A DNA stretch of 60,682 nucleotides from an uncultured Prevotellaceae bacterium (GTDB lineage: Bacteria > Bacteroidota > Bacteroidia > Bacteroidales > Muribaculaceae), in assembly GCA_900318645.1 (NCBI GenBank), contig ONLH01000016.1:1-60682 (forward strand). Reading direction: 5' to 3'. Below are positions 10,406 to 16,201 of the stretch, piece after piece. The stretch's first letter is position 1. Each line of letters begins with the position of its first letter. The position numbers were made by a program, and so were the translations under genes. The notes under the pieces were generated by a model. It made no database searches, had not been told where the DNA came from, and saw only the letters and a list, made by a program, of their open reading frames with translations.

Positions 10406-10420
10406 GCGTAAAAAATACAT
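10406..10420 (+). promoter_or_regulatory. Candidate NrtR-type operator B
   Basis: GCGTAAAAAATACAT, a 15-base near-palindrome lying just upstream of the -33 box of the regulator gene. It shares spacing and core with three other sites at 10461, 11301 and 11357. Its start is 55 bases from that of the site at 10461. Confidence 0.6.
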
Positions 10421-10426
10421 AGAAAA

Positions 10427-10458
10427 TTTGGTGGTTATAAAAATTGGCATTATTTTTG
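10427..10458 (+). promoter_or_regulatory. Promoter of the Nudix regulator gene
   Basis: TTTG (10427-10430), a 20-base spacer, and TATTTTTG (10451-10458) match the Bacteroidetes housekeeping promoter. The predicted transcription start falls inside the palindrome at 10461-10475, so binding there would block initiation. Confidence 0.8.
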
Positions 10459-10460
10459 CA

Positions 10461-10475
10461 GTGTAAAAAATACAC
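10461..10475 (+). promoter_or_regulatory. Candidate NrtR-type operator A
   Basis: GTGTAAAAAATACAC is an inverted repeat (GTGTA/TACAC around five A) that overlaps the predicted transcription start of the downstream Nudix/winged-helix gene. Its position suggests autorepression. Confidence 0.7.
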
Positions 10476-10489
10476 AAAGGACGATAGCA

Positions 10490-11221
10490 ATGAAGTTTAA
10501 CAAGGAAACTGAGCTTTGGGAATCACCCTACTGGCACCCGGCGGTAACAACCGACGCGGTAGTCTTTGGCTTTGACGGAGTGGAGCTGAATGTTCTGCTC
10601 ATCCAGCGTGGCTTGGAGCCTTACAAGAACATGTGGGCTCTGCCTGGTGGCTTCATGCGTCCTGATGATATGACAGCACAGGCTTGCGCCTATCGTGAAT
10701 TGCGTGAGGAGACCGATGTGGATGATATCTATATTGAGGAGATGCAGACGTTTTCCCGTCATGATCGCGATCCGCGTGAGCGTGTTATCACGATTGCCTT
10801 CTTTGCCCTTGTGGTCCAAGACAAGTACCACATCAAGGGAGGCGATGATGCCTGCAATGCCAAGTGGTTCCCGGTCAAGGAACTGCCCGAATTGGCCTTT
10901 GACCATAAGGATATCGTAACGCTAGCCCTTGAACGACTACGCCAACGCATACATTTTGAACCCATTGGATTTCACTTGCTTGACAAGGAATTCACAATGC
11001 CCCAGTTACACAATATTTATAAAGCTATTTTAGACCCACCCGAGGATGACACTAAATTAAGTGATCGTAGGAATTTTCAAAAAAAGATGTTGAAGCTCGG
11101 GTACATCAGGGAGACCGGGAAAAAGGTGACAGGAAACCCTCACCGCTCTCCCAAGTTGTACACTTTTGACGAAGAAGCCTACCAGCAAGCCAAGAAGATA
11201 GGCATGCGCCTGGAGTTCTGA
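10490..11221 (+). CDS. NrtR-type regulator: Nudix domain plus winged helix
   Basis: A 243-residue cytoplasmic protein. Residues about 18-155 form a Nudix domain (WALPGGFMRPDD followed by YRELREETDV); an Asp stands where the Nudix box usually has its first Glu and the spacing is slightly off, which is common in members that bind rather than hydrolyse their nucleotide. Residues about 165-243 form a winged helix (FTMPQLHNIYKAIL, FQKKMLKLGYIRETG). This is the NrtR layout; known members repress NAD-synthesis genes and are released by ADP-ribose, and Bacteroides relatives control arabinose use. No NAD or arabinose genes lie nearby. Operator-like palindromes flank its own promoter and recur upstream of the next gene, so the likely targets are itself and the VWA gene. 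The effector cannot be read from the sequence. Confidence 0.9.
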   Translation: MKFNKETELWESPYWHPAVTTDAVVFGFDGVELNVLLIQRGLEPYKNMWALPGGFMRPDDMTAQACAYRELREETDVDDIYIEEMQTFSRHDRDPRERVITIAFFALVVQDKYHIKGGDDACNAKWFPVKELPELAFDHKDIVTLALERLRQRIHFEPIGFHLLDKEFTMPQLHNIYKAILDPPEDDTKLSDRRNFQKKMLKLGYIRETGKKVTGNPHRSPKLYTFDEEAYQQAKKIGMRLEF

Positions 11222-11300
11222 CTTGGCGGCAGGCGGCTGAATCGACCTTGATCCAACCTCTGGAATTACAGGGGCTGGAGACTTGACAGGAACGATTAAT

Positions 11301-11315
11301 GTGTTAATTTTACAC
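11301..11315 (+). promoter_or_regulatory. Candidate NrtR-type operator D
   Basis: GTGTTAATTTTACAC, a 15-base near-palindrome in the gap before the VWA gene. Its start is 56 bases from that of the site at 11357, matching the pair upstream of the regulator gene. Confidence 0.6.
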
Positions 11316-11356
11316 ATTGGTCTGTGTCAAGAATTTGCACCCCTAATGTTACCAAT

Positions 11357-11371
11357 GTGTAAATATTACAA
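11357..11371 (+). promoter_or_regulatory. Candidate NrtR-type operator C
   Basis: GTGTAAATATTACAA, containing the perfect palindrome TGTAATATTTACA in its core on the reverse strand. TTACACATTGG at 11310-11320 and CCAATGTGTAA at 11352-11362 are exact inverted copies, so sites C and D face each other. Confidence 0.65.
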
Positions 11372-11414
11372 TTTGGCAAGGTTGCAGGAATGAATGGTCC
11401 ATTAGAACCTGATA

Positions 11415-11422
11415 TATCTTTG
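11415..11422 (+). promoter_or_regulatory. -7 box of the VWA gene
   Basis: TATCTTTG matches TAnnTTTG; no good -33 box is present at the usual distance, which fits a regulated promoter. About 87 bases separate it from the start codon. The leader contains ACGATAGCAA, also present just before the start codon of the regulator gene. Confidence 0.65.
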
Positions 11423-11508
11423 CAGCGATAACGATAGCAAAACAAAGTATAACAAATACAGCGTGTTTTTATAAGTAGTAATTAACGGTTTGATAAAAGT
11501 TTGAAAAG

Positions 11509-12738
11509 ATGAAGAATCCATTTAAGAAAAACAAATGTGCGGCTCAGCAAGCCAACGAAGGATGCCCCATGGGGAATGGTATGAATCAGGAGACTCAGGC
11601 CAATGTTGCAAACGGCCTGAATCAGGAGACTCTGGCCAGCAACGGTCAGACAAAGGAGGGTTTGGACCCCAACAAGGCCCACGTCTATAACCTCATCATC
11701 GTCGATGAGAGCGGCTCGATGAGCGGTCTGGAGCAGGTGACCATCAGTGGCATTAATGAGACGATTGCCACTATCAGAAAGGCACAGGAGGATTATGCCG
11801 ATAAGCAGCAGCATTTCCTCACGCTGGTGTGCTTTGATGAACGTAGGGAAGGTATTCCTCCCGTTCGCACTCATATCGATGCCATGCCCATCGACAGCGT
11901 GCACGACTTCCATGATTACCGTCCCACTGGCTGTACGCCCCTGTTTGACGCCATGGGCCAGTCATTGACCAGACTGCACGGGCGCATCAAGGATGATGAG
12001 AACGCCTCAGCCGTGGTGACTGTCATCACCGACGGCTTGGAGAATGCTTCCCGCGAGTGGTCTGGAGAGGCCCTGCGCAAGCTCATTGAGCAACTCAAGG
12101 AAGAAGGTTGGGCCTTCTCCTACATGGGCTCGTGCCACGATGTGGTGGAGGTGACCATGAATCTGTCTATCGACCATGTCATGCAGTTTGACCACGATAA
12201 TCTGGGTGCATCCAACACGTGGCACCGCGACAATTCGTCCAAGCTTGCCTACTACGAGCGGTTGAATCGCGATTTTAATGTCCTTGATTCGCTTCCGGAC
12301 AAAATGTCTAAGCGTCGTGCCCATGCCCGTGCTTACTATGCCGACCGTATCACTCCCGAGTGGATTGACCATTTAGCCGACAACGAGGTCTTTGTCTTCG
12401 GCAGCAACCCTGATGGGAACCATGCCGGCGGTGCAGCCGCTTTTGCCGTGAAGAACTTCGGTGCCATCATCGGCCAGGGCGAGGGCATGCAGGGCCAGAG
12501 CTACGCCATCCCCACCACGGGCGATTACACCCTCTTTGCCCAGGCGGTGCGGCGCTTCGTGGAGTTTGCCGCCGAACATCCCGACAAGCGTTTCCTGGTT
12601 ACCCGCGTGGGTTGTGGCAATGCGAGGCACGACTTGCGTAGTGTGGCACGACTGTTTGTCGATACCATCAGGATCGAGAACATCTGCCTGCCTGAGAAGT
12701 TCTGGGAAGTCCTCGGACTCAAGCTGTTCCGCAAGTGA
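11509..12738 (+). CDS. VWA-domain protein with C-terminal FGSN-type domain
   Basis: A 409-residue protein without signal peptide, so probably cytoplasmic. Residues 1-55 are hydrophilic with short repeats (NQETQANVANG, NQETLASNG). Residues about 58-235 are a von Willebrand A domain with an intact metal site (DESGSMSG near 65, GCTPLFDAMG near 143, ITDGLENAS near 177). Residues about 290-405 form a second domain: VFVFGSNPDGNHAGGAA, then GQGEGMQGQSYAIPTT and VTRVGCGNA. I remember this pattern from a widespread family of unknown function also found in phages (A1S_2505-like); this name is from memory. Operator-like palindromes shared with the neighbouring Nudix regulator suggest joint control and a link to a nucleotide signal such as ADP-ribose; that is inference. 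Followed by its own terminator. Confidence 0.85.
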   Translation: MKNPFKKNKCAAQQANEGCPMGNGMNQETQANVANGLNQETLASNGQTKEGLDPNKAHVYNLIIVDESGSMSGLEQVTISGINETIATIRKAQEDYADKQQHFLTLVCFDERREGIPPVRTHIDAMPIDSVHDFHDYRPTGCTPLFDAMGQSLTRLHGRIKDDENASAVVTVITDGLENASREWSGEALRKLIEQLKEEGWAFSYMGSCHDVVEVTMNLSIDHVMQFDHDNLGASNTWHRDNSSKLAYYERLNRDFNVLDSLPDKMSKRRAHARAYYADRITPEWIDHLADNEVFVFGSNPDGNHAGGAAAFAVKNFGAIIGQGEGMQGQSYAIPTTGDYTLFAQAVRRFVEFAAEHPDKRFLVTRVGCGNARHDLRSVARLFVDTIRIENICLPEKFWEVLGLKLFRK

Positions 12739-15418: not shown

Positions 15419-16201
15419 ATGTTTGAAAAGGAAATAGAACAATATGACCAATTGGTGGCACAGTATCTAGAACGGATAGCTAAGCCGATGGGAAACCAGG
15501 AGTTCCGCAAACACTCCGAGATTCTCTTTTCATGCCATAGTTGCGGTATCGAAGGTTCATCGTTTTCGGTTGATGACACCCGTGCGCTGTTTGAACAAGG
15601 TTTGGGGTATTATCCCGTGGGCAAAACGCTGCTTGAATGTCAGGAAATGGCTGATCACTTCAAGGCTTATGAGTGGATGCACGACCATTTGGACCACCCC
15701 TTAGACGTGGAGCTGATGAAGACCGTTAACCGTCTTGTCACGCTCAATACCTTGTCCTATCGGGTGCCTGGTGCCATGCCTGGAGAGTTCACTACGGTGG
15801 ATATGGCGGCAGGTGACACCATCTTTGGAGATCATGAGAAATTGATAGCCCAGGTGCCGCGCCTGATGGAATCGACTGCACGGGCAATGGCCGATGGTGG
15901 CATCCATCCGATGGCGCTGGCAGCACGTTTCCATGGATTCTATGAGTATCTGCACCCTTTCCGTGACGGCAACGGTCGCACGGGGCGTTTGTTGTCCAAC
16001 TTCATCCTGCTGCAATACCACTTGCCCGAACTGATCATCCTCAAGGAAGATCGTCAGCAATATATTACTGCCTTAAGGGCAAAGCGTACAGAGGGAACCG
16101 ACGAGCATCTGATTGCCTTCTTCTTCCAGGCCGCTATCAAACAGATGCAGGCTGCCCTTGATCAGAAGAAAAACAACAGCCGCACCATGCTCTTCTTCTG
16201 A
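15419..16201 (+). CDS. Fic domain protein (probable AMP-transferase)
   Basis: A 260-residue Fic protein; such enzymes usually transfer AMP from ATP to a target protein hydroxyl. The catalytic loop HPFRDGNGRTGR is intact at about residues 179-190. An N-terminal inhibitory motif of the (S/T)xxxE(G/N) type is visible as SCGIEG near residues 41-46, so the enzyme is predicted to be self-inhibited by its own helix. No antitoxin-like small partner lies beside it, in keeping with a self-contained inhibitor. A -7 box (TAACTTTG, 15406-15413) ends only five bases before the ATG, so the transcript may be leaderless; the alternative is a start at the methionine of MGNQEF (codon 24). Target unknown. Confidence 0.92.
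   Translation: MFEKEIEQYDQLVAQYLERIAKPMGNQEFRKHSEILFSCHSCGIEGSSFSVDDTRALFEQGLGYYPVGKTLLECQEMADHFKAYEWMHDHLDHPLDVELMKTVNRLVTLNTLSYRVPGAMPGEFTTVDMAAGDTIFGDHEKLIAQVPRLMESTARAMADGGIHPMALAARFHGFYEYLHPFRDGNGRTGRLLSNFILLQYHLPELIILKEDRQQYITALRAKRTEGTDEHLIAFFFQAAIKQMQAALDQKKNNSRTMLFF

Follow-up and report, generated by a model that had tools for sequence, protein, structure and literature searches.

The 60,682-nt contig ONLH01000016.1 of an uncultured Prevotellaceae bacterium (assembly GCA_900318645.1), hereafter termed the window, encodes an NrtR-like regulator and, downstream of it, a protein in which a von Willebrand A (VWA) domain is joined to an A1S_2505 domain. Each of the two genes is preceded by a pair of near-palindromic sites. 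The locus is likely to be an NrtR-type regulatory unit that responds to ADP-ribose and controls ADP-ribose-processing proteins. In related genomes the same palindromes are conserved, paired, and placed at fixed spacing before regulator and target genes, and there the sites and the regulator family go with ADP-ribosylglycohydrolase (ARG), sirtuin, NADAR, and A1S_2505 genes, so that the common theme is ADP-ribose. The module is genuine and most probably belongs to ADP-ribose metabolism; we infer the effector, the direction of control at this locus, and the enzyme activity.

The genome containing the window (as its contig C32) comprises 3.6 Mb in 75 contigs and is 91% complete. The four palindromes described in the initial annotation are all present, with starts 55 bp apart before the regulator gene (10406 and 10461) and 56 bp apart before the VWA gene (11301 and 11357), and sites were scored over the 12 arm positions of the symmetric pattern GTGTAA-N3-TTACAC. 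The distal nrtR operator (10406-10420; GCGTAAAAAATACAT) has an arm score of 9, and the proximal nrtR operator (10461-10475; GTGTAAAAAATACAC) is centered 17 bp downstream of where the -7 box begins. Between them lies the nrtR core promoter (10427-10458, plus strand), which consists of TTTG at 10427-10430, a spacer of N20, and TATTTTTG at 10451-10458, and the regulator-gene pair thus brackets its promoter as had been proposed. Before the VWA gene, the distal operator (11301-11315; GTGTTAATTTTACAC) and the proximal operator (11357-11371; GTGTAAATATTACAA) are centered 107 bp and 51 bp, respectively, before the probable -7 box (11415-11422, plus strand; TATCTTTG). This TAnnTTTG box has no TTTG 17-23 bp upstream and is located downstream of both sites, and the pair therefore does not bracket it. 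A conserved element containing the inverted repeat GCAA-GG-TTGC is found between the operator and the -7 box (11375-11391; GGCAAGGTTGCAGGAAT).

At three or fewer mismatches, GTGTAAAAAATACAC had 6 matches in the window against 1.33 expected, and none of 100 dinucleotide shuffles reached 6. Arm scores of 11 or more were obtained for three sites in 60.7 kb, all of them inside the two gaps before these genes. The 10406 site scores 9, like 19 places in the window, and consequently has little meaning by itself. The whole-genome motif search that had been suggested returned 83 pattern matches at three or fewer mismatches and 101 for the reversed control; since the matches are no commoner than the control, single sites are untrustworthy and pairs are trustworthy. 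Reading through the whole-genome match list revealed no further pair spaced by about 55 bp.

Conservation was assessed in a genus set of 101 genomes, 48 of which contained a near full-length match to the VWA-A1S_2505 protein (cut by contig ends in G007 and G061). A total of 41 loci were chosen by the VWA gene, namely the window and 40 others, and seven genomes were left out (G007, G042, G044, G043, G041, G023, and G061). These loci were split by identity to the window protein into class 1 (n = 15; the window and L039-L052) and class 2 (n = 26; L053-L078), in which the VWA protein is 47-57% identical to that of the window. In all 15 class-1 loci nrtR is immediately followed by the VWA gene or a DUF6717-VWA unit, and the regulators are 84-92% identical; a DUF6717 gene is inserted between nrtR and the VWA gene in 8 of the 15 (in L048 as a shorter frame). 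Upstream of nrtR, 14/15 class-1 loci have two sites, with only the proximal one reaching the threshold in L040. Two sites precede the target unit in 15/15 at a score of at least 9 if C/G is tolerated at positions 2 and 14, the second target sites scoring only 9 in L039 and L045. A stricter scan without the C/G tolerance, in which the starts in L050 and L051 were set without DUF6717, yielded a proper pair before 11 of the 15 targets. The sequence ACGATAGCAA, noted earlier as shared by the two leaders, does occur in both window leaders, but it was found in both leaders of just 1 of the 14 other class-1 loci (L039) and in one leader of L040, and was discarded as a conserved shared element.

For class 2, the fetched stretches reached up to about 4 kb on either side of the VWA gene. 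A second NrtR (52-54% identical) stands ahead of the VWA gene in 5 of the 26 loci, with a site pair before the regulator in all five. The other 21 have no regulator in the fetched stretch, and at least two sites precede the VWA gene in 21/21, which is the strongest answer to the question of palindrome conservation. The initial annotation had named lack of conservation upstream of orthologs as grounds for its own dismissal, and the class-1 and class-2 sites decide this point in its favor. In 8/26 class-2 loci DUF6717 is located downstream of the VWA gene. Regulator genes of the WYL/WCX type are found beyond the VWA gene on the opposite strand in four class-2 loci (L053, L058, L059, and L064; Pfam was run on L058 only), none of which has an adjacent NrtR.

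Exact copies of GYGTAAWWWTTACRC were located at 80 places in 44 of the 101 genus genomes, compared with 9 places in 9 genomes for the reversed control. Full-length NrtR was assigned to 58 genomes (cut by a contig end in G037), with the cut set between G043 (E 3.6e-53) and G065 (1.0e-51, partial); below it, most of the matches were Nudix ones some 130-180 residues long. Sites occurred in 42/58 genomes with full-length NrtR and in 2/43 without it (Fisher p 1.6e-12), and full-length NrtR was present in 45/48 genomes with the VWA fusion versus 13/53 without it (p 2e-13), in agreement with the co-occurrence of the two genes that was to be looked for; the genus genomes are not independent, and these p values ignore shared ancestry and serve only as a guide.

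Spacing was regular. The 64 pairs formed within 150 bp by the 109 strong sites of the 41 VWA-chosen loci fell into two groups, 40 spaced 53-58 bp and 24 spaced 27-30 bp. A further 40 loci were picked for holding a site or a full-length NrtR (33 with NrtR and 7 without), which raised the number of sites to 163, a number due in part to that choice, against 1-7 in five Markov resamplings. Over all these loci, spacings of 51-58 bp (55 pairs) and 27-30 bp (24 pairs) were the only ones seen; the 27-30 bp spacings arise because a third site lies between the outer two. Weaker class-1 pairs before DUF6717 are also found 45-46 bp apart, about one helical turn less. The fixed spacing suggests cooperating dimers, in line with the two dimers proposed by the first annotator. 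Taken with the fixed promoter geometry described below, with conservation, and with the co-occurrence of NrtR, this regularity leaves scarcely any credibility to an interpretation of the palindromes as chance AT-rich matches or as sites of an unrelated regulator, which could appeal to the weakness of the 10406 site alone and to three-mismatch genome matches no commoner than the control.

Promoter geometry was compared between the classes. The pattern TTTG-N19/20-TAnnTTTG, a type that corresponds to the Bacteroidota promoter consensus, was found in 15/15 class-1 nrtR promoters. At class-2 VWA loci the center of the proximal site follows the -7 start by 17 bp in 25/26, and that of the distal site is at -38 to -41 in 24/26, the exceptions being L065, without such a box, and L073, in which the distal site is outside the scanned stretch. 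One operator is thus near the start point and the other just upstream of the -33 element, which is a repressor arrangement. Class-1 VWA promoters, unlike those with bracketing geometry, have their sites upstream of the -7 box. A TAnnTTTG box was recognized in 14/15 class-1 target promoters (none in L044), with the proximal site centered 50-51 bp and the distal site 95-107 bp before it. In none of the 14 does a TTTG stand 17-23 bp before the box; a bare TTG does in 3. Between operator and box, AAGGTTGCAG is present in 14/15 class-1 loci and GCAAGGTTGCAG in 12/15; the AAGGTTGCAG element is possibly a second-regulator site or an activator contact.

Since the VWA sites of the closest lineage are upstream of the promoter, the regulator may act there through activation or looping. 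One tentative explanation is that in the window lineage the regulator activates the VWA (or DUF6717-VWA) promoter from the upstream pair and represses its own gene. The constant position of the proximal site in all 14 target promoters with a box, the missing TTTG, the interposed AAGGTTGCAG element, and the bracketing of its own promoter by the nrtR sites would all suit it, although the start sites are predicted only, bracketing in 24/26 class-2 loci suits repression, and PMC9503650 regards the Nudix regulators of its own systems as negative. We regard this explanation as distinctly less probable than not.

The connection with ADP-ribose was made through the genes that accompany the regulator family. 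Genes were assigned to the same run if they were on the same strand with gaps of less than 250 bp, and were named by BLAST to a few Pfam-checked representatives. An ARG, SIR2, NADAR, or A1S_2505 gene was present in the NrtR run at 27 of the 33 further NrtR loci, which is not an unbiased rate because the further loci were picked by site or NrtR. Pfam matches of the representatives were ADP_ribosyl_GH (5.6e-37 to 4.5e-104), SIR2 (2.7e-42), and NADAR (3.1e-53), and one representative combines a cytidylyltransferase-like part with NADAR. A1S_2505 is the fusion partner of several ARG proteins and also occurs as standalone copies in NrtR-SIR2 runs. The VWA gene had been regarded as the only visible target; this holds in the window genome, but in relatives the sites and regulators go with ARG, sirtuin, NADAR, and A1S_2505 genes. 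NrtR proteins have reportedly been linked before to control of ADP-ribosylglycohydrolase genes.

The regulator gene (10490-11221, plus strand) encodes a 243-residue protein with a Nudix-like domain at residues 19-143 and an NrtR/AraR winged helix at about residues 157-236. Its classification as an NrtR-type regulator was sustained by Pfam matches over the cut-off to NUDIX (4.9e-20), NrtR_WHD (2.1e-18), and AraR_C (6.9e-13), and the structure model has a pLDDT of 83. By eye, the Nudix box is degenerate in the window regulator and intact-looking in class-2 relatives. In PADLOC the Nudix part matched candidate model PDC-S07 (1.9e-9), a match that probably reflects the Nudix domain only. A shorter Nudix relative, 50% identical over regulator residues 13-184 and matching little of the winged helix, is encoded in the same genome (C46:12664-13164) and in many genus genomes.

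The ligand pocket was compared by alignment to PDB chains and by means of the residues named in PMC4666351 ('L-arabinose binding site'). SoNrtR Arg41 and Arg98 correspond to Arg40 and Arg96 of the window regulator, and Arg96 is invariant in a 20-sequence alignment; SoNrtR Arg98 is a ligand contact and BtAraR has Gly89 in its place (PMC4666351). The filling of the nucleotide side by Gly89, Leu67, and Phe36 in BtAraR is not seen in the window regulator, which has Arg96, Glu74, and Leu42. As judged from these aligned residues, the pocket would allow an ADP-ribose-type ligand, which is no proof, and the gene company is the stronger argument. The features shared with known NrtR regulators are a Nudix-like domain with an NrtR winged helix, palindromic operators, retention of the SoNrtR Arg98 equivalent, and, probably, autoregulation, whereas the target, a VWA-A1S_2505 protein, and the pairing of sites 53-58 bp apart are different.

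The presumed target gene (11509-12738, plus strand) encodes a 409-residue protein. Its VWA domain (11674-12273) has an intact metal-site motif (D66, S68, S70, T143, and D175); the VWA fold was confirmed, the MIDAS residues DxSxS, T, and D are invariant in 41 sequences, and from residue 49 onward the structure model is good, with a mean pLDDT of 87. The macro-like A1S_2505 domain (12388-12702), with the motifs FGSN, GGAA, and GCG, matched NF049995 at 1.2e-34 and 118.9 bits, above the cut-off of 45. The fusion of a VWA to an FGSN-type domain recognized in the initial annotation is therefore upheld, but the second domain, described there as being of unknown function, has a name, NCBIfam A1S_2505, and is distantly similar to DarG-type macrodomains. 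A profile of 26 A1S_2505 sequences was compared with one of 10 DarG-type macrodomains, two of which had their label checked (NCBIfam and PADLOC). The alignment, which includes the GCG loop and the following helix, had a score of 37.9 (P 1.6e-5, probability 79%). Among the controls, 200 column shuffles averaged 13.4 and peaked at 25.5, the reversed profile reached 9.7, and two unrelated profiles reached 9.9 and 14.4. For comparison, a classical macro set matched the DarG set at P 4e-6. A mixed MacroD and DarG set matched A1S_2505 at P 1.2e-4 over 103 columns. DarG is a DNA ADP-ribosyl glycohydrolase antitoxin; the similarity of A1S_2505 to it is distant, and no toxin partner was identified.

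Further proteins with this domain were noted. The window genome encodes a second A1S_2505 protein of 293 residues (L243:1534-2412, contig C25) behind a 391-residue protein with a TIR-like start recognized by eye. At L112:2420-3541, downstream of a strong palindrome, A1S_2505 and DUF1810 are joined in one protein, and DUF1810 may belong to the same pathway. A class-1 genome encodes a 360-residue protein (L235:1411-2490) with a Macro match over the cut-off at its start (1.3e-12) and a TIR-like end recognized by eye.

Several observations weigh against an ADP-ribose function, besides the shared ancestry of the genus genomes and the upstream position of the class-1 VWA sites already mentioned. Those that concern the A1S_2505 domain are the restriction of the DarG-type match to 64 columns, the lack of significance against MacroD-type sets alone (P 0.079 and 0.44), the absence of a Pfam Macro (PF01661) match in the domain, and an unconvincing PDB search with the A1S_2505 profile (best E 0.13; macrodomain protein 5e3b at E 0.9). 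As a PF01661 match is wanting, the domain is called macro-like and no more. It could instead be an unrelated alpha/beta domain that is merely co-regulated, for which the missing Macro match and the lack of a solved relative by sequence would speak. Fold searches with the whole protein list mainly its VWA half, which has been counted on the same side, although for this reason the lack of a macro match in them is uninformative. A DarG-type match well above 200 shuffles, the ARG fusions, the standalone copies in NrtR-SIR2 runs, and the C6orf130-based model in the available text of PMC6978653 make an unrelated domain unlikely.

As to the regulator, the NCBIfam model 'ADPR responsive transcriptional repressor' gave 133.8 bits against a cut-off of 400, and the protein is accordingly not filed as an equivalog of the ADPR repressor. 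The SoNrtR contacts Asn43 and Lys76 are replaced by Leu42 and Glu74. The arabinose residues of BtAraR, Arg34, Arg86, and His131, are kept as Arg40, Arg93, and His139; because all of them but Arg34 are spatially conserved in SoNrtR too (PMC4666351), their retention is hardly discriminating. An arabinose- or xylose-type sugar regulator, with the VWA gene incidental in a carbohydrate regulon and a GH31 glycosidase gene following, would fit the AraR_C match, the position of BtAraR (PDB 5bs6) as the best solved relative, the three retained hydrogen-bonding residues, and the presence of a GH31-group gene in 14/15 class-1 loci. The AraR/XylR branch in Bacteroidetes (PMC4666351) further shares domain order, tandem sites, and the arabinose hydrogen-bonding residues with the window system; the site pairs of AraR operons are separated by 3 bp or 42 nt. 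It differs in having Gly89 where the window regulator retains Arg96, and in its arabinose genes, none of which was found among the neighbor and site-locus proteins given to Pfam. No strong site precedes the GH31 gene that comes after the VWA gene in the window, and ADP-ribose-related genes accompany NrtR at 27/33 further loci. Arabinose as the principal explanation was rejected, given the lack of arabinose targets and the retention of Arg96, the arabinose residues being kept nonetheless, and a sugar regulator of this type is considered very improbable.

The remaining counterevidence to an ADP-ribose unit lies in gene content and in the incomplete spread of the site pairs. At the window locus, genes for ARG, sirtuin, or NADAR were not identified; the run contains no ADP-ribose gene at 6 of the 33 further NrtR loci; and none was seen at 3 of the 7 site-bearing loci without NrtR (L111, L115, and L117), a VWA-only match adjoining the L111 pair. 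Three of the 48 VWA genomes have no full-length NrtR, namely G083 (97% complete), G012 (77%), and G061 (87%). As to distribution, outside the window genome no complete VWA-A1S_2505 fusion was found in a 296-genome phylum sample at E 1e-30, and none of 47 plasmid records with a match covered 80% of the VWA protein. Other phyla were covered only through a scan of named genome contigs, in which the best 80 of 398 relatives had titles nearly all referring to Bacteroidales or its families and one to Lachnospiraceae. Forty of these 80 loci had already been examined; the other 40 include at least two genus genomes, and are thus not all from outside the genus, and 4 of them had too little upstream DNA. 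Two sites within 60 bp were found at 15 of the remaining 36 and not at the other 21, from which the regulon seems to be wider than the first-examined loci and not universal.

Under the ADP-ribose reading, which remains preferred, the unit may function as follows. Two regulator dimers would bind a site pair cooperatively; at nrtR, the site upstream of the -33 element and the site near the start point would block RNA polymerase, resulting in autorepression; and the regulator would be released when the level of free ADP-ribose, or of a close derivative, goes up. The macro-like domain of the induced protein would then bind or hydrolyze ADP-ribose or ADP-ribosylated substrates, while the metal-site VWA domain would hold a client protein. 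A bolder version, advanced with considerable reserve and held to be rather doubtful as a whole, is that Muribaculaceae and relatives possess an ADP-ribose regulon read by one operator code (a pair at 51-58 bp, often with a third site between) that includes ARGs, sirtuins, NADARs, and macro-like A1S_2505 proteins. In the window lineage its main target would be a de-ADP-ribosylating VWA-macro fusion with its own client-binding domain, often with a DUF6717 partner, and bracketing sites would provide self-repression and upstream sites target activation.

Such a regulon, defined by its operators, would tie to ADP-ribose metabolism both DUF6717 and A1S_2505, whose NCBI name says no more than phage non-structural protein and for which a macrodomain model so far exists for one Acinetobacter protein; the company of ADP-ribose enzymes suggests a role for the unstudied VWA-A1S_2505 protein. 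The operator pair may serve as a sequence signature for ADP-ribose-responsive genes in uncultured gut Bacteroidales. The shift of the operators between lineages offers a simple test case in which one regulator family may switch control modes.

The nearest precedents in print are the ARG-centered systems and a macrodomain model of A1S_2505. ARG-centered systems, in which Nudix- or WYL-type regulators are accompanied by phosphatases and vWA chaperones, were predicted in 2022 (PMC9503650, section 3.8). The window has the combination of a Nudix or WYL factor with a vWA protein, and no ARG gene was identified at its locus; relatives have ARG and NADAR genes, and WYL-type genes occur near some loci. 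The fusion of vWA to A1S_2505 is a difference, and in section 3.8 Bacteroidota are not among the named lineages and operators are not described. The earlier description as a compact signaling or stress module stands; as to its being undescribed, systems with Nudix regulators and vWA proteins had been predicted before. For the Acinetobacter baumannii protein A1S_2505, from which the NCBIfam domain takes its name and whose printed sequence contains the FGSN motif, the available text of PMC6978653 (2020) gives an I-TASSER model on the human macrodomain protein C6orf130 (TM-score 0.925), and A1S_2505 as a macrodomain is to that extent already in print. According to the same text the protein was studied as a small-RNA target and its deletion was without effect on colistin resistance, and a VWA fusion or NrtR regulator is not mentioned in it; the available text of PMC3516566 contains a transposon-table entry only. 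Neither this regulon nor DUF6717 nor the VWA-A1S_2505 fusion was found to be described in the open-license PubMed Central (PMC) literature, and in that literature the operator code, the VWA-A1S_2505 target, and the DUF6717 partner were not found in print.

Within an ADP-ribose regulon, the role of the proteins may be defense, reversing ADP-ribosylation by phage or foreign enzymes, in place of NAD housekeeping. This role was proposed for the ARG-centered systems (PMC9503650, section 3.8), and the WYL-type genes at 4/26 class-2 loci are in line with it. A1S_2505-like sequences were detected in 422 of 50,697 phage records. Two of these records were inspected, and both have the A1S_2505-like gene near a DprA-like gene; the protein was annotated as macro by HHpred in the first and as ADP-ribosylglycohydrolase in the second, where DUF4326 is also nearby. 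A fold search of a viral library with the whole protein as query returned phage proteins of 115-220 residues at 29-36% identity, which may be A1S_2505 proteins. No PADLOC defense model matches the VWA protein, however, the regulator is matched over its Nudix part by a candidate model only, and the flanks, with a helicase-like gene in 15/15 and a GH31-group gene in 14/15 class-1 loci, look stable and not mobile. A defensive role is given about one chance in three and is treated as a question of function within the regulon.

Beyond the VWA gene, and without a site scoring 11 or more before it, the window encodes at 15419-16201 a Fic-domain protein (9.1e-15), which is a possible nucleotide-transferring protein.

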